Positions 1-47,798 of a stretch of DNA of 64,000 nucleotides are shown one piece after another. The position numbers and the translations under genes are program-made. The notes under the pieces were generated by a model. That model was not told the DNA's origin. It did no database searches and was given only the letters and a program-made list of their open reading frames with translations. The stretch spans positions 221,423-285,422 of the forward strand of contig NZ_JAATNG010000004.1 in assembly GCF_013184805.1 (NCBI RefSeq), written 5' to 3'. The stretch is from Pseudoruegeria sp. HB172150 (GTDB taxonomy: Bacteria; Pseudomonadota; Alphaproteobacteria; Rhodobacterales; Rhodobacteraceae). Numbering within the stretch: the first letter of the stretch is position 1; every line of letters starts with the position of its first letter.

Positions 1-2326
<2,326 letters not shown>

Positions 2327-2410
2327 ATCCAGTAGAAGCCAGGCGCCCAGCCTTGGCGGATCAGAAAGCATACACTGTGAAGTGTACGTGACTTGGAACG
2401 TGTTCTTTTC

Positions 2411-2531
2411 TTGGTTTGGTGGTCATAGCACGAGCGAAACACGCGATCCCATCCCGAACTCGACCGTTAAGCGCCGTTGCGCCGATGGTACTGCGTCTTA
2501 AGACGTGGGAGAGTAGGTCACCGCCAAACCT
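2411..2531 (+). rRNA. rrf: 5S ribosomal RNA
   Basis: A 5S rRNA of about 118-121 nt. The terminal helix is formed by GGTTTGG (2413-2419) and CCAAACC (2524-2530). The internal conserved loops are present (CGATCCCATCCCGAACTCG near 2442-2460 and GGGAGAGTAGGTCACCGCC near 2507-2525). It follows 23S by about 85 bases, as expected within one rRNA operon. Confidence 0.96.
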
Positions 2532-2876
2532 AGTAAGGAACACGTGCCGTATCTCTCTGACGATGATCCTCCCAAAACTCGAAAATTTAAGTTGTCGCTC
2601 AGCATGCGCTGCAGCGGCATATTAGAATGTCATCGAGGCTGCAAATACTATCCGGCCAGCCTAAGGCTTTTCCATAGAAGCCTGCACAGCGTTCGTCCTT
2701 ACGCGGTAAGCGTAGGAGCCTTCTGAAACCGACGGCGACTATGGCGCCTGGCGAGCACAAAGTTCCTCGCCAGGCGATTGTAAGTACGGATTGGCCAGTT
2801 CGATGGCTATCTCTGCGAATTTGCCCCCGGATGGGCACAGACCCCGAATAGCCAACCATGCCAATACTGCGTTGTG
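2532..2876. other. intergenic stretch after 5S rRNA
   Basis: 345 bases with no supportable gene. The base composition looks less GC-rich than the surrounding chromosome. It contains one strong hairpin (2745-2776, listed separately). In related rRNA operons tRNA-fMet usually follows 5S closely; here this segment starts a 1.3 kb interruption. Confidence 0.6.
2745..2776 (+). terminator. strong hairpin, possible rRNA operon terminator
   Basis: Perfect 11-bp stem, CGCCTGGCGAG (2745-2755) with CTCGCCAGGCG (2766-2776), and a 10-base loop. The following bases (ATTGTAAG) form only a weak T-run, so a Rho-independent terminator is possible but not certain. It lies between the + strand rRNA genes and the 3' end of a - strand gene, so it could serve either direction. 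Confidence 0.4.
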
Positions 2877-3482
2877 TTATTCGCAGTCGTAGAGCGGTGC
2901 TACACCCAGCCCCCAACTGTTTGGGCCGACCGCGAGACCGTTGACTGTGCCCTTGTCCTCCACCGGAAAAACGAACGGGGCGTATTTGCCATCCTTACTT
3001 TCATTGAAGCGCTTGTAGTGCTTGTCATGTTTCCATCGGACTTCAACCATCAGTTCCCAGCTCTCTTCCCAGGGCACGTTGAAAACCGCTACACCATTTT
3101 TATGAGTCGGCACTGCTACGACGATCGGAATCCAACCTTGCGCAATGTCGATACCACGGTGCACTCGGGCAAGAAGGTTGCGGTCGGCGGTGCCATCGAA
3201 CAGGAGAAGCTGAACGTCATCGATTGCTGTTCCGTCGCCGTTAGCTAAGTAAAACTTCTTCGTGGCATGGTCTTTGCTACCGCCACGTTTCACGAAGTCG
3301 TCCCTTAACGACCAGTCTTCATATTTGCGTGTGTTTCCATACGTGCTTTTTCCATAGTTGTCGAATTCGCTGCCGACCTTACAGGTGGTCCTTGCCATTG
3401 CAGGGCTCGATATCGCGGTTGCGAGCGGCAGGATTGCCGCCAGAAACAGGTGTTTTTTGCCGAGAAGCATGTGGGTTTCCAT
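2877..3482 (-). CDS. secreted hypothetical protein, unknown function
   Basis: A 201-residue protein on the strand opposite the rRNA operon. The chosen ATG (3482) opens a clear signal peptide: a positively charged start (GKKH), a hydrophobic core (LFLAAILPLATAI) and an Ala-x-Ala cleavage region (SPAMA). An ATG four codons later is an equally plausible start, and an upstream in-frame start at 3533 would only add residues before the signal. The mature part is polar and rich in Lys, Asp and Trp, with two Cys (one soon after cleavage, one near the C-terminus) that could form a disulfide. I recognise no family. It sits inside the interval between 5S rRNA and tRNA-fMet, which suggests a late insertion. 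It is probably exported to the periplasm or beyond; nothing more can be said. Confidence 0.6.
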   Translation of the reverse strand: METHMLLGKKHLFLAAILPLATAISSPAMARTTCKVGSEFDNYGKSTYGNTRKYEDWSLRDDFVKRGGSKDHATKKFYLANGDGTAIDDVQLLLFDGTADRNLLARVHRGIDIAQGWIPIVVAVPTHKNGVAVFNVPWEESWELMVEVRWKHDKHYKRFNESKDGKYAPFVFPVEDKGTVNGLAVGPNSWGLGVAPLYDCE

Positions 3483-3863
3483 TCTTTGCTGACGTTCAAA
3501 CGCCAAGCAGACCACTCCTCCGGTAGAGGCCACAGTCCGCCGGTTACTACGGCGATATTGTCACAGCCGGTTGAGCCAAACATGGAGGACGGCTGGAGTA
3601 ACCTGGGAGTTTCTCTGCAGCGCGCGTGAGCCGCTGAATGTGCCGACAATCAATCTGCCAGATAGTCGAAACCATCGTGACAGAGCCGGTATTGTTTGAG
3701 GCGCATGCGCTGATAGACGTGCCGTCGCCAAACCGAACAGGGATGGCACAGGACAGGAATGACCCAAACAAATTCTCCATCGAGGAGGACAGCAAATTCC
3801 GATGAAAAACCCTAGACAGCCCTTGCGGTTCCCCACCCTTTTGAATAATACACCGAAACTTGG
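3483..3863. other. intergenic stretch before tRNA-fMet
   Basis: 381 bases between the start of the opposite-strand hypothetical and tRNA-fMet. Open frames here have no ribosome binding site and atypical composition, and one of them runs into the tRNA, so I call none. It should hold the promoter of the - strand hypothetical, but I see no convincing -35/-10 pair. Confidence 0.5.
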
Positions 3864-3940
<77 letters not shown>

Positions 3941-6523: not shown

Positions 6524-7302
6524 CGTTGCGGCTGCAACCGGGCCAGCAGCGCAGCGTGAAGTGCTGGCGGTGCGACCAGGGCGCCGGGGTTCTGGGGGAC
6601 CGGGTGGTTGAAGCGAAGCGCGCCGCCATGCCGGTCGGTAACCGCAGCCCCTGCTTCCGCCGCGATCAGGGTTCCGGCAGCAATGTCCCAATCCCAGGTC
6701 GGACGCAGGGTGAGCATGGCATCGAACCGCCCTTCGGCGACAAGGCAGAGCCGGTAGGCGAGGGACGGGCGGAAATGCCGGGTGATCTGCGGCATGCCGC
6801 CGGGCCAGTGTGCCGGATCGAAAACAGGGCGCGACGCCAAGATCCTGGCGCCGTCGGGGTCGACGCTGTTGCCGGTGCGGATAGATTCGCCGTTCAGCCT
6901 GGCGCCTTTGCCTTTGGCGGCCGCGTAGAGCTTGTCGTGCTCGGGGAGATAGACGACGCCGGCCACCGGCGCGCCGCGCTGAACGACCGACAGCGACAGG
7001 GCCCAGGTCGGCTCTCCCTGCACGTAGGCGCGGGTGCCATCGATCGGGTCGACGATGAACAGCGTCTCGGCGGTCAGTCGTGTCGGGGTATCCTCGGTCT
7101 CTTCCGAGAGCCAGGCATAACCGGGTCGCGCCGCCAAAAGCGTTTCGCGCAGCGCGCGGTCGACGGCGATATCGCCCTCGGACACCGGGCCGGCATCGCC
7201 GCCCTTGTCGGTCACCTTCTGATCGCTGCGCCAGTATCTCAAGGCGATCTCGCCGGCGTCCCGCGCCGCGTGGATCAGCAGCTCGAGATCAGGCTCCGGC
7301 AA
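6520..7302 (-). CDS. cysQ: 3'(2'),5'-bisphosphate nucleotidase / inositol monophosphatase family (CysQ-like)
   Basis: 260 residues with both inositol-phosphatase signatures. The metal-binding DPIDGTRAYV lies at about residues 85-94, preceded by SEETEDT (near 66-72) with its catalytic Glu; the second signature is WDWDIAAGTLIAAEAG near 201-216. CysQ removes the 3' phosphate of PAP(S), a by-product of sulfate assimilation; related IMPases act on inositol phosphates, so CysQ is the likelier but not the only reading. The 5' end overlaps pmbA by 14 bases, so the two are probably one - strand transcript. Confidence 0.88.
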   Translation of the reverse strand: MPEPDLELLIHAARDAGEIALRYWRSDQKVTDKGGDAGPVSEGDIAVDRALRETLLAARPGYAWLSEETEDTPTRLTAETLFIVDPIDGTRAYVQGEPTWALSLSVVQRGAPVAGVVYLPEHDKLYAAAKGKGARLNGESIRTGNSVDPDGARILASRPVFDPAHWPGGMPQITRHFRPSLAYRLCLVAEGRFDAMLTLRPTWDWDIAAGTLIAAEAGAAVTDRHGGALRFNHPVPQNPGALVAPPALHAALLARLQPQR

Positions 7303-8635
7303 GTGTCAGGCCTTCGACGAGGAGCGAGGGAACCCGGTGCGAGGTGTGCGGACGTGCGTCGTTCGCGGGCGTGATCCGGCGCAGCATGTCGCGAAGGTTG
7401 CCCGCCAGCGTGCATTCGTTGACCGGATAGGTAATCTCGCCGTTCTCGACCCAGAAGCCGCTGGCGCCACGGGAATAATCGCCGGTCGTCGGGTTGATCG
7501 AGGACCCGATGAGCGATGTGACAAGCAGGCCTGTGCCCATCTCGCGCAACAGATCCTCGCGGGTCCGGGTGCCGGGTGTCAGGGTGACGTTGTGCGCACT
7601 GGGCGACGGCGGATGGCCGGTACCACGCGATGCGTTGCCGGTGGGTGCAAGGCCAAGCTTTCGAGCGGTGGAAAGGTCGAGGATCCAGCCCGACAGGACG
7701 CCATTCGCGACGATGTCGCGCTTGACGGTCGGCAGGCCCTCGGCATCGAAGGGGCGTGAGCCGGAGGCGCGCGGTCGCAGCGGGTTCTCGGTTAGCGACA
7801 GCGCGTCGGGAAGCACAGGCTCGCCCATCGCGTTCATCAGCCAGGAAGCGCCGCGCGCGACCGAGGCGCCGTTGATCGCGCCCAGAAGGTGCCCGATCAG
7901 GCCACTGGAGATACGCTCGTCATAGAGGACCGGATAGGCGCCGGTGGGCGGTTTCTTTGCACCCTTGCGGGCCGAGGCGCGTTCGCCGGCGATGCGGCCG
8001 ATGCTTTCCGCGTCCGGCAGATCGGCGGCGTGAAGGCGCATCTCATAATTGCCGTCACGCTCCATCCCGGTGCCTTCGCCAGTTATCGCCGTGCAGCCGA
8101 TGCCGCTGCTGCTGCGCCGGTAGCCGCCGGAAAAGCCGTTGGTCGCCGCGAGATGAATGGCACGGCGGGAAAACCCGGCGGAGGCGCCGTCGCTCTGGCT
8201 GATGCCCTCGACGGCGCGCGCCGCAGCTTCGGTGCGGCGCGCGAGATCTTCCAGAGTGGCCGGATCGGGTTCCGGCGCAGGATCGTCGAGTTCAAGCGCG
8301 GCAAGATCCCAGTGCGTGGCAAGCTGATCTGGATCGGCGAGCCCGGCATTCGGATCCTCGGGTGCCTCGCGCGCCATCGCAACGGCGCGTTCCGCCATCT
8401 GCTCGATGGTGGCGTCCGAGATGTCAGAGGCGGAAACGCAGGCCTGCCGCCTGCCGATCAGCACCCGCAGGCCGATATCGATCCCCTCGGACCGTTCCGC
8501 CTGTTCCAGCGCCCCGTTCCGCACGTCGATCGAAAGCGATGTTCCGTCTACCGCAAGCGCGTCCGCCGCCTCGGCGCCGGCTTTGCCGGCGGCGTTCAGA
8601 AGGCGTTCGGTCAGCATCTGCAGGCGGTCGGACAT
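7289..8635 (-). CDS. pmbA: PmbA/TldE family metalloprotease subunit
   Basis: 448 residues, full length for the TldD/PmbA family. It resembles the PmbA (TldE) member: it lacks the HExxxH zinc site found in TldD and has the family's Gly-rich C-terminal part (GLAPTGNASRGTG near 342-354; TGDYSRGASGFWVENG near 393-408). In the known complex TldD and TldE form a heterodimer that trims peptides such as microcin precursors, and TldE is the non-catalytic partner. No tldD lies in this window. It is upstream of and overlaps cysQ. Confidence 0.92.
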   Translation of the reverse strand: MSDRLQMLTERLLNAAGKAGAEAADALAVDGTSLSIDVRNGALEQAERSEGIDIGLRVLIGRRQACVSASDISDATIEQMAERAVAMAREAPEDPNAGLADPDQLATHWDLAALELDDPAPEPDPATLEDLARRTEAAARAVEGISQSDGASAGFSRRAIHLAATNGFSGGYRRSSSGIGCTAITGEGTGMERDGNYEMRLHAADLPDAESIGRIAGERASARKGAKKPPTGAYPVLYDERISSGLIGHLLGAINGASVARGASWLMNAMGEPVLPDALSLTENPLRPRASGSRPFDAEGLPTVKRDIVANGVLSGWILDLSTARKLGLAPTGNASRGTGHPPSPSAHNVTLTPGTRTREDLLREMGTGLLVTSLIGSSINPTTGDYSRGASGFWVENGEITYPVNECTLAGNLRDMLRRITPANDARPHTSHRVPSLLVEGLTLAGA

Positions 8636-13239: not shown

Positions 13240-14127
13240 CTAGGCCGGGGCGGCCCTGCTTTCGCGCTGCAGCAGGAACAGCGAGGCGGCGACGATGAGC
13301 GCGGAGCCGAGCCACATGGCGCCGGGCGGAACGAAGCCGAAGACGGCGAGACCGAGCGCGACGTTGAAGGGCAGCTTCACGTGATCGAAGGGCTGCAGGT
13401 AGGCGGCGTCGGCGATGCTGTAGGCACGGGCGAGCAGGTATTGCGCCAGAGCGGTGAGCATGCCGGCGGCAACCAGCAGCAGTCCGGACGTGCCGGCGCC
13501 GAGCGACAGGCCGTCCGGCCATGCGACGACCGCGTTGATCGGCGTCAGCAGCAGGAGCAGGTAGACAGTCAGCGATTCCGGGCTTTCGCTGCGGCTCATG
13601 TGCTTGGTCAGGAGCGAGTTGAGCGCCCAGAGCGCGGCGGCCGCGACCGGAAGAAGCGCGTGCAGGCTGAAGGCGTCGGACCACGGGGCCAGAACGATCA
13701 TGCCGCCCGCGAAGCCCGTCGCGACCGCGCCGAGGCGTTCGGGCGTTATGCGCTCTCCCAGTGCTGCCCAGGCGCCCAGCGTCACGAAGAAGGGCGACAG
13801 CATCACCAGCGCGATGGCCTGCCAGATCGGCACATGGGCAAGGCCCATGACCCAGAGCTGAACCCCGAGGGCCGCCGAGGCGGCGCGGACGATGTGCAGC
13901 ACCGGGTGACGGCTGCGCAGGGCGGAGATGCCTTTGGCGAGGATCCAGGGCACCGCGAACAGGAGGGCGATCAGGTATTGCCAGAAGGCGATCCGGGGCG
14001 GGGCGATCCCCAGCACCATCGCGCCGTACTGGACGAGGATGTTGATCACCGCGAACAGCGCGCCGGCGGCGATCATCAGGCCCGCGCCGGCGGCGGCGGG
14101 GCTGAGACGGTTCAAATAGCGAGTCAT
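13240..14127 (-). CDS. ribN: DMT-family transporter under FMN riboswitch, probable riboflavin importer (RibN type)
   Basis: 295 residues with about ten hydrophobic segments in two repeated halves, the EamA/DMT layout. By fold alone the substrate would be unknown, but a complete FMN riboswitch lies directly upstream on the same strand, and DMT transporters of the RibN group in alphaproteobacteria are known to be FMN-riboswitch controlled riboflavin carriers. I therefore infer riboflavin uptake across the inner membrane. The ATG at 14127 is chosen because AAAGGACAAC precedes it; an upstream in-frame start would add 11 charged residues before the first membrane helix. The gene is monocistronic here. 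Confidence 0.85.
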   Translation of the reverse strand: MTRYLNRLSPAAAGAGLMIAAGALFAVINILVQYGAMVLGIAPPRIAFWQYLIALLFAVPWILAKGISALRSRHPVLHIVRAASAALGVQLWVMGLAHVPIWQAIALVMLSPFFVTLGAWAALGERITPERLGAVATGFAGGMIVLAPWSDAFSLHALLPVAAAALWALNSLLTKHMSRSESPESLTVYLLLLLTPINAVVAWPDGLSLGAGTSGLLLVAAGMLTALAQYLLARAYSIADAAYLQPFDHVKLPFNVALGLAVFGFVPPGAMWLGSALIVAASLFLLQRESRAAPA

Positions 14128-14178
14128 GGCGTTGTCCTTTCTTCTACGCTCACAACTCAAGGCAGACAGGACAACGGC

Positions 14179-14199: not shown

Positions 14200-14210
14200 G
14201 TGTTTCTCCC

Positions 14211-14350
14211 GCTCTCTTCCATCCGGACTTTGACCGTCGGCTCCGGAGTTGCACCGGATCTGCTTGACCCCCCGGCTGGCGGGGGCGCTCGCGGGCTTGC
14301 GGCCGGGGCCGCTTACCGCCGGTGGGGAATTTCACCCCGCCCTGAGAACG
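14211..14350 (-). promoter_or_regulatory. FMN riboswitch (RFN element)
   Basis: All conserved RFN segments appear in order on the - strand: GGGCGGGGTGAAATTCCCCA then CCGGCGGTAA (from 14342 down), AGCCCGCGAGCG, a variable stem, GATCCGGTGCAACTCCGGAG, then CCGACGGTCAAAGTCCGGAT and GGAAGAGAG. In the known class FMN binding switches expression of riboflavin synthesis or transport genes off. It sits upstream of the DMT transporter at 13240-14127 and therefore controls it. Confidence 0.96.
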
Positions 14351-14456
14351 ACGCGGCCATTGGCGGCCGCCCGGTCAAGTTAGGGGGCGACGTAAGCGCG
14401 CGCAATGGCGGCTTTCCGGGTTGGCTTTCTTTCTGCGCGCCCCTAGCGTCGCCGCC

Positions 14457-21816: not shown

Positions 21817-22626
21817 TTATTCCTCGCCGCCGGTGCCGAAGCTGCCGGAGAAGTCGCGGAGTTTCGCGGCCAGATCCTCCACGGTGCCGTTCACCGTGAT
21901 CCGCGCCTTGTTCACGCCGTCGACATAGATCGACAGGACCGTTTCGGATTGCGGGACGGAGCGGACGATCAGCGGCGCGAAGGAATAGACCAGGACCAGT
22001 ACGATGCAGAGCCCCATCACCGCGAAAAAGCCGACGCGGAAGCCGGTGCGCTTCTTTTCCTCTTCGGTCGCGATCTCCGGTTCTGCCGTGGCTTCGCGGT
22101 CTTCCTGGCCGCGCAGGGTCGAATTGATCTCATCGACATCCGGCAGCAACCCGCTGCGCGGGCCAGAGTCGCCCTCGGGTTCGTCCTCCTGGCCGCGCAG
22201 CCGGGCCATTCGGGCACGGGCCGCCGCCGAACGTGTGGCAGTGACGGCGCGATCTTCCTCGGCTTCGTCCAGTCCGAGATCGGGCTGGCTTTCCAGCCCG
22301 CCAGTGGTTTCTTCGCGGCGTGCCTTCGTTTCGCGCTCGGCCTCTTCGCGGAGCACGTCGGCGACCGCCGGATCGAGGCTGCGCGGTTTCGGGGAGGCCG
22401 GGGTTTCCGGTGGCGTCTCTGCCGGGGCATCGGGCGCCGTTTCGGGAGATGCGGGGGCTTTCGCCGGATCGCTTTCGAGCGCGTCCTCGAGTTCGAGGTC
22501 GAAATCCTCGGGCCGCTGGAACCAGCTATGGCCGCAGTTGGAACATTGCACGTCCCGACCCGCCTCGGGGATCAGGCTGCCGTCTACATCGTATTGTGCA
22601 CCGCAGTTCGGACAGATCAGTCGCAT
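21817..22626 (-). CDS. zinc-ribbon (MJ0042-type) single-pass membrane protein
   Basis: 269 residues. The N-terminus is an MJ0042-type zinc ribbon: CPNCGAQYDV (Cys5, Cys8) and CSNCGHSW (Cys28, Cys31). An acidic, Pro/Ala-rich linker of more than 100 residues follows, then one membrane helix (about 200-222) and a short C-terminal domain (DUF3426-like by layout). So the zinc ribbon faces the cytosol and the tail the periplasm. The start is fixed by GAGGGATACG before the ATG at 22626. It is divergent from ftsE with a shared 168-base control region. Function unknown, though this arrangement beside ftsEX recurs in relatives as I recall. Confidence 0.8.
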   Translation of the reverse strand: MRLICPNCGAQYDVDGSLIPEAGRDVQCSNCGHSWFQRPEDFDLELEDALESDPAKAPASPETAPDAPAETPPETPASPKPRSLDPAVADVLREEAERETKARREETTGGLESQPDLGLDEAEEDRAVTATRSAAARARMARLRGQEDEPEGDSGPRSGLLPDVDEINSTLRGQEDREATAEPEIATEEEKKRTGFRVGFFAVMGLCIVLVLVYSFAPLIVRSVPQSETVLSIYVDGVNKARITVNGTVEDLAAKLRDFSGSFGTGGEE

Positions 22627-22716
22627 CGTATCCCTCGATATGCGCACAACTGCTTGTGCACCCCTCTTGCCCTGTTTCCAGAAGTTGTAGCAACCTTCCA
22701 CCTCTTTTTAAAGCAT

Positions 22717-40470: not shown

Positions 40471-41847
40471 ATGGTAAAAACGGTTGATCTCATTTCCCCC
40501 ATCGACGGGTCCGTCTATCTGAGCCGCGAGGTCCTGACGCGCGAGGCGGGGTTCGCCGCCGCGGACAAGGCGAAGGCGGCGCAGGCGGACTGGGCGGCGC
40601 GGCCGCTGGCGGAGCGCGTCGCGCTGGTCCGGAAGGCCGGTGAGATCGTCGGGCAGACGACGGACCGGATGGCGGTGGAACTGGCGCATCAGATGGGCCG
40701 CCCGGTGCGCTATGGCGGCGAATACGGCGGGTTCAACGAGCGGCTGTCCTACATGGCCGATATTGCCGAAGAGAGCCTTGCGCCGACGGTCATCGAGGAA
40801 AGCGACGCGTTCGTGCGGATGATCAAGCACGTGCCGCATGGCGTGGCTCTGGTGATCGCGCCGTGGAACTATCCCTACATGACCGCGATCAACACGGTGG
40901 CGCCGGCGCTGATCGCCGGGAACACGGTGATCCTGAAACATGCGCAGCAGACTCTGCAGGTGGGTGAGCGGCTGGCGGAGGCGTTCCACGAGGCGGGGGT
41001 GCCCGAGGACGTGTTCCAGAACCTCGTGCTGGATCACGACACGACATCCGCCCTGATTTCCGAGCGGAAGGTGGATTTCGTCAACTTCACCGGCTCTGTC
41101 GGCGGAGGCAAGGCTATGGAACAGGCGGCAGCCGGGACGTTCATCCCGGTCTCGACCGAGCTGGGCGGCAAGGATCCCGGCTATGTGCGCGCGGATGCCG
41201 ATCTGGACGCGGCGGTGGACACTCTGATGGACGGGGCGATCTTCAATTCCGGGCAGTGCTGCTGCGGGATCGAGCGGATCTACGTGCACGAGAGCCTGTA
41301 CGACGATTTCGTCGCCAAGGCGGTAGCCTGGGCCAACGCTCAGGTTCTGGGCAACCCGCTGGAGCCGGAAACGACGCTTGGCCCGATGGCGCATGCGCGC
41401 TTCGCCGCGGAAGCGCGGGCGCAGGTGGAGGAAGCGGTGGCGGATGGCGCCGTTGCGCATATCCGCACCATGGAAGCCGACGATGGCGCGGCCTATATGA
41501 CGCCACAGGTGCTGACCGAGGTAACCCACGACATGCGGGTGATGCGGGACGAGACATTCGGTCCGGTCGTGGGCATCATGCCCGTCAAGGACGACGAGGA
41601 GGCCATTGCACTGATGAACGACTGCCGCTTCGGGCTGACCGCCTCTGTCTGGACGAGGGACATCGCCGCCGCCGAGGCGATCGGCGACCGGCTGGAGACC
41701 GGGACGGTGTTCATGAACCGCTGCGATTACCTCGACCCGGCATTGTGCTGGACCGGCTGCAAGGATACGGGCCGCGGCGCGGGGCTGTCGAAACTGGCCT
41801 ACGGGGCGCTGACCCGGCCGAAATCCTACCATCTGAAGAAAGGCTGA
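40471..41847 (+). CDS. NAD(P)-dependent aldehyde dehydrogenase
   Basis: 458 residues with the ALDH set: PWNYPYM near 131-137 (cofactor site), FTGSVGGGK near 208-216, the general-base Glu in ELGGKDPGY near 230-238, and the active-site Cys in NSGQCCCGIERI (catalytic Cys264 by alignment with the FxxxGQxCxA pattern). It oxidises an aldehyde to its acid; the paired iron-type alcohol dehydrogenase 4 bases downstream suggests it handles the aldehyde that enzyme makes. AAAGG lies before the start. Confidence 0.92.
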   Translation: MVKTVDLISPIDGSVYLSREVLTREAGFAAADKAKAAQADWAARPLAERVALVRKAGEIVGQTTDRMAVELAHQMGRPVRYGGEYGGFNERLSYMADIAEESLAPTVIEESDAFVRMIKHVPHGVALVIAPWNYPYMTAINTVAPALIAGNTVILKHAQQTLQVGERLAEAFHEAGVPEDVFQNLVLDHDTTSALISERKVDFVNFTGSVGGGKAMEQAAAGTFIPVSTELGGKDPGYVRADADLDAAVDTLMDGAIFNSGQCCCGIERIYVHESLYDDFVAKAVAWANAQVLGNPLEPETTLGPMAHARFAAEARAQVEEAVADGAVAHIRTMEADDGAAYMTPQVLTEVTHDMRVMRDETFGPVVGIMPVKDDEEAIALMNDCRFGLTASVWTRDIAAAEAIGDRLETGTVFMNRCDYLDPALCWTGCKDTGRGAGLSKLAYGALTRPKSYHLKKG

Positions 41848-41851
41848 TGCC

Positions 41852-42997
41852 ATGACGCTGACCGGAAACTGGTCCTATCCCACCGCCATCCGCTTTGGCG
41901 CGGGGCGCATCAAGGAAATCGCCGACGCCTGCCGGTCCGCCGGTATCCACCGGCCCTTGCTGGTGACCGACCGCGGGCTGGCGGACATGGAGATCACGCA
42001 GAAGACGCTGGATCTGCTGGACGACGCCGGGCTGGGCCGGTCGATGTTTGCCGAGGTCGATCCGAACCCGTCGGACAAGAACGTCGAGGCGGGGCTGAAG
42101 GTTTACCGTCAAGGCGGGTTCGACGGAGTTGTGGCTTTCGGCGGCGGTTCGGGGCTGGACCTTGGCAAGACGCTGGCCTTCATGGCCGGGCAGACGCGGC
42201 CGGTCTGGGATTTCGAGGATGTCGGCGACTGGTGGACCCGCGCCGATCCGGGCGGCATCCATCCCATCGTGGCTGTGCCGACGACGGCGGGGACCGGTTC
42301 GGAAGTGGGGCGCGCGGGCGTCATCACAAATTCCGAGACGCATGAGAAGAAGATCATCTTCCACCCCAAGATGTTGCCGCAGGTGGTGATCTGCGACCCG
42401 GAGCTGACGGTGGGGATGCCGAAGCACATCACCGCCGGAACCGGTCTCGACGCCTTCGCGCATTGCGTGGAGGCCTATTCCTCGCCGCATTACCACCCGA
42501 TGAGCCAGGGCATCGCGCTGGAGGGGATGCGGCTGGTCAAGGAGTACCTGCCGCGTGCCTATGCGGACGGGACCGACCTCGAGGCGCGGGCGAACATGAT
42601 GAGCGCGGCGGCGATGGGGGCAGTTGCGTTCCAGAAGGGACTGGGGGCAATCCACTCGCTGAGCCATCCTGTGGGCGCGCATTACCACACGCACCATGGG
42701 ACGACGAACGCGGTGTTCATGCCGCCGGTGCTGCAGCTGAACGCATCGGCAATCCGGACGAAGTTCGACAGGGTCGCCGCCTATCTGGGGATCGAAGGCG
42801 GTTTCGGCGGGTTCTGCGAGTTCGTCGACACGTTCAACGACTCGCTGGGCATCCCGAAAACGCTGAGCGGGCTGGGGATCAACCATCCGGACCTCGACAC
42901 GATGGTGCGCGATGCGCTGAAGGATCCGAGTTGCGGCGGCAACCCGGTGAAGCTGACAGCGGAGAACCTGCGCGCGGCCTACGAGGCGGTGCTGTAA
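41852..42997 (+). CDS. iron-containing alcohol dehydrogenase
   Basis: 381 residues, group III alcohol dehydrogenase. Cofactor motif GGGSGLDLGK near 96-105, PTTAGTGSEV near 141-150, and the metal-binding region GLDAFAHCVEAY near 197-208 and LSHPVGAHYHTHHG near 269-282 (Asp and three His). It interconverts an alcohol and aldehyde with NAD(P). It begins 4 bases after the aldehyde dehydrogenase stop, so the two form one transcript and a two-step oxidation. Confidence 0.92.
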   Translation: MTLTGNWSYPTAIRFGAGRIKEIADACRSAGIHRPLLVTDRGLADMEITQKTLDLLDDAGLGRSMFAEVDPNPSDKNVEAGLKVYRQGGFDGVVAFGGGSGLDLGKTLAFMAGQTRPVWDFEDVGDWWTRADPGGIHPIVAVPTTAGTGSEVGRAGVITNSETHEKKIIFHPKMLPQVVICDPELTVGMPKHITAGTGLDAFAHCVEAYSSPHYHPMSQGIALEGMRLVKEYLPRAYADGTDLEARANMMSAAAMGAVAFQKGLGAIHSLSHPVGAHYHTHHGTTNAVFMPPVLQLNASAIRTKFDRVAAYLGIEGGFGGFCEFVDTFNDSLGIPKTLSGLGINHPDLDTMVRDALKDPSCGGNPVKLTAENLRAAYEAVL

Positions 42998-43162: not shown

Positions 43163-43282
43163 GTGCAGGGCATCTAGGGTTCCGCCTCTTCCTCCTCCCG
43201 AGGGCAGGTCCGAGAGATGCCGCCGGCCCGGCAAATTCCGGGGCGGTACACGGCGGGGCAAAAGCCCGGGAGAGCACTGCAC
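43163..43282 (+). promoter_or_regulatory. guanidine-I (ykkC subtype 1) riboswitch aptamer
   Basis: The conserved blocks are all present in order: CTAGGGTTCCG (43174-43184), GGTCCGAGAG (43207-43216), TACACGGCGGGGCAAAAGCC (43247-43266) and CGGGAGAG. A closing stem GTGCAG (43163-43168) pairs with CTGCAC (43277-43282). This class binds free guanidinium and turns on genes for its export, breakdown or uptake. It sits 88 bases upstream of the transporter gene cluster. Confidence 0.93.
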
Positions 43283-43298
43283 CAAGGGTTTGACCGGA

Positions 43299-43363
43299 CT
43301 CTCCAGGTTCCGCCACGGTCGACCCCCTTTTAAGCGCCCGAGGCGGAACGCCGTAACAGGGGG
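43299..43363 (+). promoter_or_regulatory. expression platform of the guanidine riboswitch
   Basis: GTTCCGCC at 43307-43314 can pair with GGCGGAAC at 43342-43349. The same GTTCCGCC also occurs inside the aptamer (43179-43186), so the downstream strand could pair with either. CTCTCC (43299-43304) is complementary to GGAGAG (43269-43274) of the aptamer. The putative ribosome site GGGGG (43359-43363) is complementary to CCCCC (43323-43327). These alternatives fit translational control; the mechanism is inferred. Confidence 0.5.
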
Positions 43364-43370
43364 ATTACCC

Positions 43371-44420
43371 ATGCTTGCCAAACGTATTGCTGCCGCCGCC
43401 GTGCTGGCGCTGGCCGCCGTGCCCGCGCTGGCGCAGGAAAAGACCGAATTTCGCGTAGCCTGGTCGATCTATGTCGGCTGGATGCCCTGGGGGTACCTGG
43501 AAGAGTCCGGGATCATGGACAAATGGGCCGAGAAATACGGCATCGACGTCGAGATCGTGCAGATCAACGACTATGTGGAATCGATCAACCAGTACACGGC
43601 AGGCGCATTTGACGGCGTAACGGCGACGAACATGGACACGCTGTCGATCCCGGCGGGGTCGGGCGTGGACACCACGGCGCTGATCGTGGGCGACTATTCC
43701 AACGGCAATGACGCGGTGATCATGAAGGGCGACGGCGTGCTGGCCGACCTTGCCGGCAAGCCGGTGAACCTGGTGGAGCTGTCGGTGTCGCATTACCTGC
43801 TGGCGCGCGGATTGGACCAGGTGGGACTTTCCGAGGCCGATCTGGGCGGCGTCATAAACACATCCGACGCGGACATGATCGCGGCTTATGCGACGAATGA
43901 CGTGGAAGCGGTGGTGACGTGGAACCCGCTGGTTTCGACGATCATGGAAGAGCCGGGTGCCAACAAGGTCTACGACTCGGCGGATATTCCGGGCGAGATC
44001 ATCGACATCATGTGGGTCAACACCGAGACGCTGGCGGCGAACCCGGATTTCGGAAAGGCGCTGGTGGGTGCGTGGTACGAACTGATGGGCCTGATGGAAT
44101 CGGGCGATGAAGAGGCGCTGACGGCGATGGCCGAGGCGTCGGGCACCGATCTCGATGGCTACAAGGCGCAGCTTGACGCGACCAAGATGTTCTGGACCCC
44201 GGCCGAGGCGGTGGAGTTCACCTCTTCCGACGGGCTGAAGGACACGATGGTCAACGTTGCCGAGTTCCTGTTCGACAAGGGCATTCTGGGCGAGGGCGCG
44301 CCGTCGCCTGATTTCGTCGGCGTCGAATATCCCGACGGGTCGACCACGGGCGACGCGAACAACGTCAAGATGCGCTACGACACCACCTACATGCAGATGG
44401 CCGCCGACGGCGCGTTGTGA
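43371..44420 (+). CDS. NitT/TauT-type ABC transporter substrate-binding protein (urea/guanidine region type)
   Basis: 349 residues with a signal peptide (MLAKRIAAAAVLALAAVPAL, cleavage near AQ). It is the SBP type annotated as putative urea ABC transporter binding protein, first noted beside urea carboxylase genes that are now known as guanidine carboxylase genes. Trp-rich pocket residues lie near the start (WSIYVGWMPWGYLEESG, about 29-45), followed by ATNMDTLSIP near 85-94. The upstream guanidine riboswitch makes guanidine or a guanidino compound the likely ligand. CAGGGGGATTACCC precedes the ATG. First gene of the five-gene operon. Confidence 0.88.
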   Translation: MLAKRIAAAAVLALAAVPALAQEKTEFRVAWSIYVGWMPWGYLEESGIMDKWAEKYGIDVEIVQINDYVESINQYTAGAFDGVTATNMDTLSIPAGSGVDTTALIVGDYSNGNDAVIMKGDGVLADLAGKPVNLVELSVSHYLLARGLDQVGLSEADLGGVINTSDADMIAAYATNDVEAVVTWNPLVSTIMEEPGANKVYDSADIPGEIIDIMWVNTETLAANPDFGKALVGAWYELMGLMESGDEEALTAMAEASGTDLDGYKAQLDATKMFWTPAEAVEFTSSDGLKDTMVNVAEFLFDKGILGEGAPSPDFVGVEYPDGSTTGDANNVKMRYDTTYMQMAADGAL

Positions 44421-44484
44421 TCTGCGCGGAACGCCCTGCCGGTGGCGGGGCGTTCCGGCGTGCAAGTAGCGAGCGTAACCGCAG

Positions 44485-45297
44485 ATGCGTCTGATCAACA
44501 GACAGCCGAGCCGCGCGCTGACGGTGTTTCTGGCGATGCTGCCCTTCGCGGCGCTGCTGATCGCCTATTCCGTCGCGTCGGAAATCCGGCTGGCCGCGAA
44601 CCCCTCGGACCGGCTGCTGCCGTCGTTGTCGACCATCGGTGAGACGGCGGTGCGGCTGTTCACCGAACCGGACAAGCGGTCGGGCCGCATCCTGCTGTGG
44701 TACGACACCGGGGTCAGCCTGCTGCGGCTGTTCATCGGGGTGTTCTGCGCCTCTTTCGTCGGGCTGACGGTCGGGCTGCTGATCGGGCTGCTGCCGCATG
44801 TGCGCGCGATGCTGGGGGTGTTCGTCGCGGTGATCTCGATGATCCCGCCGCTGGCGATCCTGCCGATCCTGTTCATTACCTTCGGGCTCGGCGAGCTGGC
44901 GAAGGTGGTACTGATCATCATCGGGATCACCCCGTTCCTGATCCGCGATGTCAGCCAGCGGGTCGTGGACATACCGCACGAGCTGATCGTCAAGGCGCAG
45001 ACGCTGGGGGCGTCGTCGCTGGTGATCGCGCTGCGCGTGGCGCTGCCGCAGATCATGCCGCGGCTGATCCAGTCGGTGCGGCTGTCGCTGGGGCCGGCGT
45101 GGCTGTTCCTGATCGCGGCGGAGGCAATCGCGTCGGACCTGGGGCTCGGCTACCGGATCTTCCTGGTGCGGCGGTACCTGGCGATGGACGTGATCCTGAC
45201 CTACGTGATCTGGATCACCCTGCTGGCCTTCCTGATCGACTGGCTGCTGCGGGTGGCGTCGCGCAAACTGTACCCGTGGGCGGGGAAGGGGCTATGA
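44485..45297 (+). CDS. ABC transporter permease (NitT/TauT family)
   Basis: 270 residues with about six membrane helices and the BPD-transport EAA-like loop (ELIVKAQTLGASSLVIALRVA in part, near 163-183; Gly in the usual position), which contacts the ATPase. It belongs with the preceding binding protein and the following ATPase. The stop overlaps the ATPase start (ATGA). It imports the riboswitch-linked substrate, presumably guanidine, through the inner membrane. Confidence 0.92.
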   Translation: MRLINRQPSRALTVFLAMLPFAALLIAYSVASEIRLAANPSDRLLPSLSTIGETAVRLFTEPDKRSGRILLWYDTGVSLLRLFIGVFCASFVGLTVGLLIGLLPHVRAMLGVFVAVISMIPPLAILPILFITFGLGELAKVVLIIIGITPFLIRDVSQRVVDIPHELIVKAQTLGASSLVIALRVALPQIMPRLIQSVRLSLGPAWLFLIAAEAIASDLGLGYRIFLVRRYLAMDVILTYVIWITLLAFLIDWLLRVASRKLYPWAGKGL

Positions 45298-46061
45298 GCT
45301 TCGTCAGCGTCGACAACATCTTTCTGCGCTACGGCACCTTCTCGATCCTCGAACGGGTCAGCCTGTCGGTGGAGGAGGGCGAGTTCATCTCTATCGTCGG
45401 GGCGTCGGGCTGCGGCAAGTCGACCTTCCTGCGGCTCTTGCTGGCCGAGGAGCAGCCGACGCGGGGCGAGATCCGGATCGAGGGGCGGGAACCGGCGGTG
45501 GAGCCGGGACGCGAGCGGGGCATCGTGTTCCAGCGCTATTCGGTCTTTCCGCACATGTCGGTGCGCGACAACATCGTGGCCGCCGAGAGTTTCGACAAAC
45601 CGCTGGGGCGGCTGAAGCGCGGAGAGCGGGTGGCGGCGCGGGAGCGGGCGCAGGCGACGCTGGACCGGATCGGGCTGGGCCATATGGGCCATGCCTATCC
45701 CACGGCGCTGTCGGGCGGCATGCAGCAGCGGCTGGCCATCGCGCAGGCGCTGACGGCACGGCCCCGCATCCTGCTGCTGGACGAGCCGTTCGGAGCGCTC
45801 GACCCGGGCACGCGGTTGCAGATGCACGATTTTCTGACCGAGTTGCGGGAAGAAACGAAGATGACCGTCTTCATGGTCACGCACGACCTGCAGGAAGGCT
45901 TCAAGCTGGGCGACCGCGTGATCGTGTTCGACAAGCCGCGCTGGGACCCGACCGATCCGAGCGCCTATGGCGCGACCATCACCTATGATTTCGATGCCCG
46001 GAACAACGGCATCCCGTTTCAGGACATACTGGAGGCAGACCATGCACATCCCCCCGCGTGA
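45294..46061 (+). CDS. ABC transporter ATP-binding protein (NitT/TauT family)
   Basis: 255 residues. Walker A GASGCGKST (36-44), signature LSGGMQQR near 140-147, Walker B ILLLDEPFGALD near 160-171, and switch His in MVTHDLQEGF. A C-terminal extension (about 215-255, DKPRWDPTDPSAYGAT and following) is longer than in generic TauB and resembles the ATPases of this guanidine/urea carboxylase-region transporter group. The ATG overlaps the permease stop. The following ureohydrolase starts 20 bases before its end. Confidence 0.92.
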   Translation: MSFVSVDNIFLRYGTFSILERVSLSVEEGEFISIVGASGCGKSTFLRLLLAEEQPTRGEIRIEGREPAVEPGRERGIVFQRYSVFPHMSVRDNIVAAESFDKPLGRLKRGERVAARERAQATLDRIGLGHMGHAYPTALSGGMQQRLAIAQALTARPRILLLDEPFGALDPGTRLQMHDFLTELREETKMTVFMVTHDLQEGFKLGDRVIVFDKPRWDPTDPSAYGATITYDFDARNNGIPFQDILEADHAHPPA

Positions 46062-47307
46062 CCGTTCGCGGTCCCATCACCCGGCAGACCGGCGCCATGA
46101 CGAGCGGCGGCAGCACCACCCGGACCTGTCCAAGCTTCTGGGCTGGAAGGCGGCGCGGGCCGAGGCGGACATTCCGCACGGCGAGTGGAAAAAGGAGCAG
46201 GCCTGGGCGCTGCGGATGGGGCTGACGGCGGCGGATTCGATCGAGGACCGGTCGATCCCCACCTTCGCGCGGGGCGAACTGCCGCATTACGCGGGCATCA
46301 ACACCTTCCTGAAAGCGCCCTATACCGAGGACGTGCAGGAGGTGGGCATGTATGACGCCACCGTCCTAGGCGCGCCGTTCGACGGGGGTACGACCTATCG
46401 TCCCGGCACGCGGTTCGGGCCGCAGGGGGTGCGCAAGATCTCGGCGCTCTACACGCCCTACAACTACGAGATCGGGGTCGATCTGCGCGAGCAGATGTCG
46501 CTGTGCGACGCGGGCGACATTTTCACCATTCCGGGGAATATCGAGAAGACCTTCGACCAGATCAGCCGGGCGGTGTCTCATGTGTTCTCGTCGGGTTCGC
46601 TGCCCATCATCATCGGCGGCGACCATTCAATCGGGTTTCCCTGCGTGCGCGGGATCGCGGAATGTACCTCGAAGAAGATCGGCATCGTCCATTTCGACCG
46701 GCATGCGGATATCCAGGAAAAGGACCTGGACGAGCGGATGCACACGACGCCGTGGTACCATTCGACGAACCTGCCGAACGTGCCGGCGAAGAACCTCGTT
46801 CAGGTCGGTATCGGCGGCTGGCAGGTGCCGCGCCCGGCAGTGAAGGAAGCGGTCAAGCGCGAGACCAACATCATCACCATGTCCGACATGGAGGAGATGG
46901 GCATCGACAAGACCGCCGAGATGGCGCTGGAGATGGCATGGGATGGGGTCGACATGGTCTACATGTCCTTCGACATCGACTCCATCGACTGCGGTTTCGT
47001 GCCGGGGACCGGCTGGCCCGAACCGGGCGGGTTCCTGCCGCGTGAGGCGCTGGCGCTGGCGTCGAAGGTGGCGGCAGAGGGGATCTGCGGCATGGAGCTG
47101 GTCGAGGTTTCGCCGCCCTACGACACCTCGGATATCACGGCGCTGATGGGGACACGGGTGATCGTGGACGTGCTGGGTTCAATGGTGTCGGCCGGAACGC
47201 TGGGCAAGCACAAGGTGCATATCGACAAGCCGGTGGACCTGCCGATGGGCGATTACGACGAGGCGCGGGACGGCAAACGCTGGACCACGCCGGCGAAGCA
47301 GAAGTAA
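46042..47307 (+). CDS. gdmH: ureohydrolase, probable guanidine hydrolase (GdmH-like)
   Basis: 421 residues of the arginase/agmatinase superfamily. All six dinuclear-metal ligands are present: His195 (GGDHSIGF), Asp219, His221 and Asp223 (HFDRHADIQ), Asp311 and Asp313 (SFDIDSIDCG). FDRHAD in place of the common FDAHxD, the long N-terminal extension (about 70 residues) and GTGWPEPGGF near 319-328 set it apart from agmatinases. Guanidine hydrolase (GdmH) is a known nickel-dependent member of this family, giving urea and ammonia. The guanidine riboswitch and transporter make guanidine the best substrate; agmatine or guanidinobutyrate remain alternatives. GGAGGCAGACC precedes the ATG. Cytosolic. 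Confidence 0.85.
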   Translation: MHIPPRDRSRSHHPADRRHDERRQHHPDLSKLLGWKAARAEADIPHGEWKKEQAWALRMGLTAADSIEDRSIPTFARGELPHYAGINTFLKAPYTEDVQEVGMYDATVLGAPFDGGTTYRPGTRFGPQGVRKISALYTPYNYEIGVDLREQMSLCDAGDIFTIPGNIEKTFDQISRAVSHVFSSGSLPIIIGGDHSIGFPCVRGIAECTSKKIGIVHFDRHADIQEKDLDERMHTTPWYHSTNLPNVPAKNLVQVGIGGWQVPRPAVKEAVKRETNIITMSDMEEMGIDKTAEMALEMAWDGVDMVYMSFDIDSIDCGFVPGTGWPEPGGFLPREALALASKVAAEGICGMELVEVSPPYDTSDITALMGTRVIVDVLGSMVSAGTLGKHKVHIDKPVDLPMGDYDEARDGKRWTTPAKQK

Positions 47308-47312
47308 CCGCC

Positions 47313-47798
47313 ATGCCCCACGATCATCCGCATCACCACCATCATCACCACCACCACGACCATGCGCACGGGCATACCCATGCGCATGATCACCCGCATG
47401 ACCACAATCATCCCGACGATCACCTGCATTCGCATATGCACGGGCCGGACGAGGCGGCGGAGCTGCAGGTTCTGACCGACCAGTTCATCGACGGCTTCGT
47501 GCAGGCGAAGGACAAGATGTCCTACCTGCGGCTGGCGGGCGTGCCGCTGGAGAAGCCGGGGATCGATGGCGGCCCGTCGCTGAAGCTGGTGGACGTGAAG
47601 CTGACCACCGAATGGCAGGTGGGGACGGCGTCGCCTTCGTTCGGGTCGCGCGAGCTAAGCTACCTGCCGTTTCCCGGCGAAATGGTGGTGGAGCGCACCA
47701 ACATGGAGCTGGTTTATGTGTCGCTGCAGGAGAAGCAGCTGACCGATATCCGGCAGTTCCTGCTGCGGCAGAGCGCCGAGGGCCGGATCGCGACTTAG
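47313..47798 (+). CDS. His-rich protein, candidate nickel chaperone for the ureohydrolase
   Basis: 161 residues. The first 43 residues contain 24 His (nine in a row at 7-15), mixed with Asp, the pattern of nickel/zinc storage or delivery tails. The rest (about 47-161) is a compact, mainly beta domain with no P-loop and no CxxC zinc site, so it is neither HypB-like nor HypA-like. I recognise no family for it. It begins 5 bases after the ureohydrolase stop and is the last gene of the riboswitch-controlled operon. A metal-loading role is inferred from composition and context only. Confidence 0.75.
   Translation: MPHDHPHHHHHHHHHDHAHGHTHAHDHPHDHNHPDDHLHSHMHGPDEAAELQVLTDQFIDGFVQAKDKMSYLRLAGVPLEKPGIDGGPSLKLVDVKLTTEWQVGTASPSFGSRELSYLPFPGEMVVERTNMELVYVSLQEKQLTDIRQFLLRQSAEGRIAT

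Follow-up and report, generated by a model that had tools for sequence, protein, structure and literature searches.

The window examined here is a stretch of 64,000 nucleotides from Pseudoruegeria sp. HB172150 (contig NZ_JAATNG010000004.1), and it contains an operon, all on the forward strand, made up of a guanidine-I riboswitch aptamer followed by the genes for a substrate-binding protein, a permease, an ATPase, a ureohydrolase and a His-rich protein (Table 1). The last of these, here called the partner, belongs to an apparently undescribed family that is paired with the guanidinase GdmH in the genome samples that we searched, and it is a candidate nickel-loading factor for that enzyme. On balance we lean slightly towards a scheme in which guanidine would turn the operon on through the riboswitch, the ATP-binding cassette (ABC) importer would take guanidine up, GdmH would split it into urea and ammonia, and a urease encoded elsewhere in the genome would complete the release of nitrogen. 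In this scheme the His-rich tail of the partner would bind nickel and its conserved domain would dock on GdmH, probably near the arm of the enzyme that carries an HHP motif, and deliver the metal, a single protein thus doing what takes two proteins, of the HypA/HypB type, in Synechocystis.

The ureohydrolase is a guanidinase (GdmH) as judged by score, tree and signature residues. The sequence-only reading of this stretch had proposed comparing it with GdmH and with agmatinases, and it sides with the former: the closest solved relatives are the Nitrospira inopinata guanidinase (PDB entry 9fek; 548 bits) and Synechocystis GdmH (7esr/7oi1; 546 bits), while the next, proclavaminate amidinohydrolase, reaches just 175 bits, and neither agmatinase model is passed (TIGR01230, 167.2 against a cut-off of 174.3; NF002564, 206.4 against 302). 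The guanidinase criterion given in a passage of PMC11410670 is T105, H222 and W313 (N. inopinata numbering), and the window enzyme has T, H and W at these sites, which were located by sequence context with the chain numbering of 9fek taken as shifted by two. All six of the metal-binding His/Asp residues that had been noted from the sequence are kept. The genome encodes three further ureohydrolases, each with T in place of this W. A tree of 29 rows places the window enzyme among 20 partner-linked alphaproteobacterial enzymes on one side of a branch with support of 100/99; this clade adjoins the Synechocystis, Nitrospira and actinobacterial enzymes and lies far from the paralogues of its own genome, in a tree that has a midpoint root only and, as its only outgroup, these same paralogues on very long branches.

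The N-terminal arm of the enzyme follows the pattern HHP[DN]...GW, which matches in 89 of 90 partner-linked loci, a set that takes in two loci (L119 and L130) whose partner region is not seen; in the 90th the motif lies in another frame and the gene is apparently frameshifted. The pattern is unmatched in all eight of the partner-less ureohydrolases read (L148 has a looser HHHPE). Three alphaproteobacterial loci (L188, L189 and L190) contain ureohydrolases that are 53–58% identical to GdmH, beside LysR-type genes (Pfam) and with no partner match. In L189 the guanidinase W is replaced by T, so the substrate may differ, and with no partner gene present either we rejected this enzyme as a guanidinase; the L188 and L190 enzymes end at contig ends ahead of the W site.

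The pairing of partner and GdmH was followed through three samples. In the family sample (295 genomes) 44 have GdmH, and exactly these 44 have a full partner match (E ≤ 9e-48); partner matches occur in 48 genomes in total, the other four being weak and without GdmH, and three of these four fall in query residues 5–77, mostly in the His tail. The class sample (385 genomes) gives GdmH matches in 14, of which 11 are at at least 72% identity, all with the partner, and three are partial at 57–62% identity, none with a partner match. The partner occurs in 13 class genomes, namely these 11 and two more: L186 holds a partner remnant with an internal stop (7118–7360) and no gdmH, and in L187 the match is close to a contig end and follows a truncated gene for a binding protein. 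The seven phylum-sample genomes with GdmH (of 398) are all Alphaproteobacteria; three overlap the family set and the other four also have the partner. Among 80 named loci the partner is found downstream of gdmH on the same strand in 78, and L119 and L130, where the sequence ends inside gdmH, are uninformative. In Sinorhizobium fredii NGR234 the partner was missed by tblastn, and the conserved-domain profile places it directly after gdmH with 56 bits. The same loci are found with the profile that includes the tails as with the conserved domain alone. The profile has no match in three actinobacterial plasmid loci (L148–L150; a fourth record, from Embleya, lies outside this comparison). The partner is most likely dedicated to the alphaproteobacterial GdmH clade, to which it would deliver metal.

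Riboswitch model R1, which was made from six sequences including that of the window (108 bits) and whose counts are also affected by contig ends, detects aptamers at 62 of the 80 loci; at 65 of the 80 the gene for a binding protein is no more than 3 kb upstream. Because the partner is present in all 13 loci that have neither a riboswitch nor an importer gene within 3 kb, it goes, by gene neighbourhood, with the enzyme rather than with uptake, and we set it aside as a transporter or riboswitch accessory. Ten of the 13 loci are SAR116 or alike (L118, L120–L127 and L132; eight are so named, L118 and L121 are not), and in two others (L083 and L095) a more divergent importer is encoded at a greater distance upstream. 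Protein distances over 65 loci give a correlation of r = 0.86 between partner and GdmH and 0.47 between importer and GdmH; with three divergent importers removed (62 loci) the values are 0.87 and 0.76.

The surroundings of these loci vary. The ABC importers of L073, L083 and L095 are more divergent, with binding proteins that are ∼45% identical, and these loci gave no riboswitch match; in L083 the importer is separated from gdmH by genes for two short-chain dehydrogenases and a polysaccharide-deacetylase-type protein. The SAR116-type loci carry an amidase and an amino-acid-type ABC transporter on the other strand, with no riboswitch or NitT/TauT importer found, and the clusters of amidase and binding protein recur in all ten; in L118 gdmH lies near the amidase, the amino-acid-type ABC transporter and, downstream, a TRAP transporter.

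The partner consists of a variable tail and a conserved domain. The tail of the window protein has 24 His within residues 1–46, and the count falls to a few in the SAR116-type loci; LHSH is usual at the tail end and nearly invariant in alignment A1. In L133 the tail is C-terminal instead of N-terminal, and this, together with the variable length, is as expected of a metal-binding appendage. The domain comprises ∼110 residues with seven invariant positions across the 73 rows of alignment A3, and AlphaFold2 models it as helix–helix–five strands–helix. No accepted Pfam or NCBIfam family was found for the partner. Searches with 40 members gave a best E of 0.013 in Pfam and 0.0054 in NCBIfam, neither to HypA, HypB or UreE, and a relationship to these was rejected; of four weak NCBIfam matches, two point to nickel/cobalt efflux proteins (DmeF, E 0.0054; PRK10019, E 0.042) and probably arise through the His-rich stretches. 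The partner profile found no sequence relative in the PDB (best E 0.29), and Foldseek found no match of the model to the PDB below E 0.18; COMM-domain proteins that recur near the top of the Foldseek results, at TM-scores of ∼0.25, were treated as chance level. We found no description of the partner in PMC at the level of abstracts and passages; Supplementary Data 3 of PMC8390497, which covers operon members, could list it. A Limimaricola variabilis plasmid record labels GdmH ‘agmatinase family protein’ and the next gene ‘hypothetical protein’. The His-rich protein had been recorded, correctly, in the sequence-only reading, which gave it no role, although it is the more interesting part of the operon.

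Neither HypA nor HypB is found over the cut-off in this genome, which has sub-cut-off matches only. The HypA-like match is a zinc-ribbon protein in the window (21817–22701, reverse strand); the strongest HypB-like match, at 76 bits against a cut-off of 121, is some 4.2 kb beyond the match to the urease alpha-subunit and probably represents UreG. The matches listed for the five proteins of the operon include neither a HypA nor a HypB model, and hence no such pair. HypA is over the cut-off in 16 of 57 genomes with GdmH and partner, and not in 41, in a count that includes some incomplete genomes. The urease alpha-subunit has one match in the genome, on another contig, in line with the earlier remark that the window holds no urease. 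No urea/guanidine carboxylase is over the cut-off in the genome; the strongest partial matches reach at most 557 bits where 1304 are required, and they resemble other biotin-dependent carboxylases. The earlier suggestion that hydrolysis replaces carboxylation fits this genome, because urease is present and no such carboxylase passes.

Where the gdmH operon of Synechocystis sp. PCC 6803 (sll1077 and its neighbours) has HypA/HypB-type nickel chaperones, named GhaA/GhaB, the window has instead an unrelated single His-rich protein after gdmH; the riboswitch class, the NitT/TauT-type importer and GdmH are common to both. Passages of PMC12186494 and PMC8390497 describe the Synechocystis operon with its guanidine-I riboswitch, ABC importer and GdmH, and the former also describes that GdmH as dependent on nickel-delivery chaperones of the HypA/HypB type. 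The layout of riboswitch, ABC importer and GdmH is therefore not new, so that of the sequence-only reading the predicted guanidine hydrolysis is supported and the architecture is one already known. Marine picocyanobacteria have, according to passages of PMC10119275, a comparable cluster that includes homologues of hypA and hypB. MefH and DmgH, which hydrolyse metformin and dimethylguanidine, belong like the window enzyme to the nickel-dependent ureohydrolases (nickel being predicted for the latter), but are heteromeric and have other substrates; according to passages of PMC11399263 they are nickel-dependent and their activation needed co-expressed HypA/HypB-type chaperones. Chaperones of this type serve all those nickel ureohydrolases for which the maturation is known. 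The N. inopinata operon resembles that of the window in having a guanidine-I riboswitch and GdmH and, as far as the passages of PMC11410670 on it go, no HypA/HypB-type chaperone was found; it has an APC permease where the window has an ABC importer, and the same passages call the nickel loading of its guanidinase unclear.

In its most specific form, our proposal is that the partner founds a new family of proteins that each insert nickel on their own, by meeting the HHP-motif arm, and would stand in for HypA/HypB-type chaperones in the alphaproteobacterial GdmH clade, their fold being absent from solved structures; this we offer tentatively, as a possibility that stops short of being probable. 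Nickel proteins such as UreE, HypB, SlyD and those of the Hpn type have a His-rich stretch, which several of them carry on a folded domain, and the partner, which combines the two, may work like them; unlike them, it has no sequence match by profile and no fold match in the PDB at E ≤ 0.001. A number of observations weigh against nickel delivery. Storage and detoxification proteins can also carry His-rich tails, and in the SAR116-type loci, as in L135 and L139, the tail of the partner is down to a few His, which makes a large reservoir dispensable. The modelled fold has no recognisable metal-chaperone relative. A divergent rhizobial-type cluster scores 56–71 bits against the partner domain, and an otherwise invariant K is replaced in it in the three alignments examined. 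HypA does occur in the 16 genomes counted above, and partner matches without GdmH were obtained in two class genomes and, as a 27-residue match to the conserved domain at 85% identity, in G159. The 80 named loci were found by patterns from the window GdmH and are thus its near relatives, and where importer and partner are both present the distance correlations place the partner closer to GdmH only modestly. Passages of PMC11410670 also describe N. inopinata GdmH as working without known chaperones, although it is apparently under-loaded, so an enzyme of this kind need not depend on a loading factor.

Several of these points would suit a partner that forms a stable part of the guanidinase or regulates it, serving its structure, stability or activity, with the His tail secondary. 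Such a protein would likewise be co-inherited with GdmH, keep its core domain where the tail shrinks to a few His, and match the fold of no known chaperone; we nevertheless find this role doubtful, as most aligned members are rich in His, L133 at the opposite terminus, and purification of the N. inopinata guanidinase yielded a homohexamer that resembles the Synechocystis enzyme (passages of PMC11410670). We regard it as unlikely that the partner serves to buffer or detoxify nickel, being induced together with a nickel enzyme but making no direct hand-over to GdmH: the weak efflux-protein matches point that way, if probably through the His-rich stretches, but a buffer should also occur without GdmH, and the class sample has just two such cases, one with a stop inside and one near a contig end. 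Least probable of all is that the enzyme acts on another guanidino compound, which the operon would serve. NCBI names the family of the importer's binding protein (TIGR03427) ‘putative urea ABC transporter substrate-binding protein’, but the signature residues, the score gap and the tree side with guanidinases, and the guanidine riboswitch is very specific according to a passage of PMC11410670. If the partner does deliver nickel, its family would be a concrete candidate for the nickel supply of guanidinases without HypA/HypB chaperones, and it might matter when an alphaproteobacterial GdmH is expressed alone; its gene may also serve as an annotation marker for guanidinases that are now labelled ‘agmatinase family protein’.

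The remaining parts of the operon were largely as first read. The aptamer, which had been called complete, spans the full RF00442 model (1–107) with a score above the gathering threshold, and the 5.06 Mb genome has no second match to this class. The binding protein scores 520.5 bits against TIGR03427 (cut-off 333.9). The genes do follow one another with overlaps or short gaps: the ATPase start overlaps the permease end by 4 bases, the ureohydrolase start overlaps the ATPase end by 20 bases and 5 bases separate the ureohydrolase from the His-rich gene. In the leader a hairpin is predicted (43307–43314 with 43342–43349), followed by a G-rich stretch that is likely the ribosome-binding site. Inspection by eye showed no U-run terminator in the leader after the aptamer, and the folding stability of this leader shows no gain over shuffles (z of −0.25 and −0.70); we therefore rejected a terminator-type expression platform, and for the same reasons control by the riboswitch at the level of translation is only a guess.

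Table 1. Features of the guanidine operon in the window (pLDDT, predicted local distance difference test).
Feature	Coordinates	Strand	Evidence
Guanidine-I riboswitch aptamer (RF00442)	43163-43274	+	cmscan 77.5 bits, gathering 63, E 4.6e-12
Leader, aptamer to first start codon	43275-43370	+	Sequence, RNA fold
ABC substrate-binding protein, NitT/TauT type, predicted guanidine importer	43371-44420	+	TIGR03427, NMT1_2
ABC permease	44485-45297	+	BPD_transp_1, 65 bits
ABC ATPase	45294-46061	+	ABC_tran, 119 bits
Guanidinase (GdmH), ureohydrolase superfamily	46042-47307	+	Bit scores, T/H/W signature, metal ligands, tree
N-terminal arm motif HHPDLSKLLGW of guanidinase	46114-46146	+	Pattern in 89/90 partner-linked loci
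Partner protein, 161 residues, apparently undescribed family, candidate nickel-loading factor	47313-47798	+	No accepted Pfam/NCBIfam family, no PDB relative; GdmH co-occurrence
His-rich variable N-terminal tail of partner, ending in LHSH motif	47313-47441	+	Alignment A1
Conserved folded domain of partner	47442-47795	+	Alignment A3; AlphaFold2 mean pLDDT 92.8

Directly 5′ of the riboswitch, on the same strand, lie genes for an aldehyde dehydrogenase and an iron-type alcohol dehydrogenase (40471–42997), with no NCBIfam model at cut-off among the matches listed for their proteins. Elsewhere in the window, nucleotides 1–3937 hold the end of an rRNA operon (part of the 23S, the 5S and a tRNA). A flavin mononucleotide (FMN) riboswitch (14207–14353, reverse strand; 107.7 bits) lies ahead of a gene for an EamA-like transporter (Pfam; 13240–14160, reverse strand), which is possibly a riboflavin importer.

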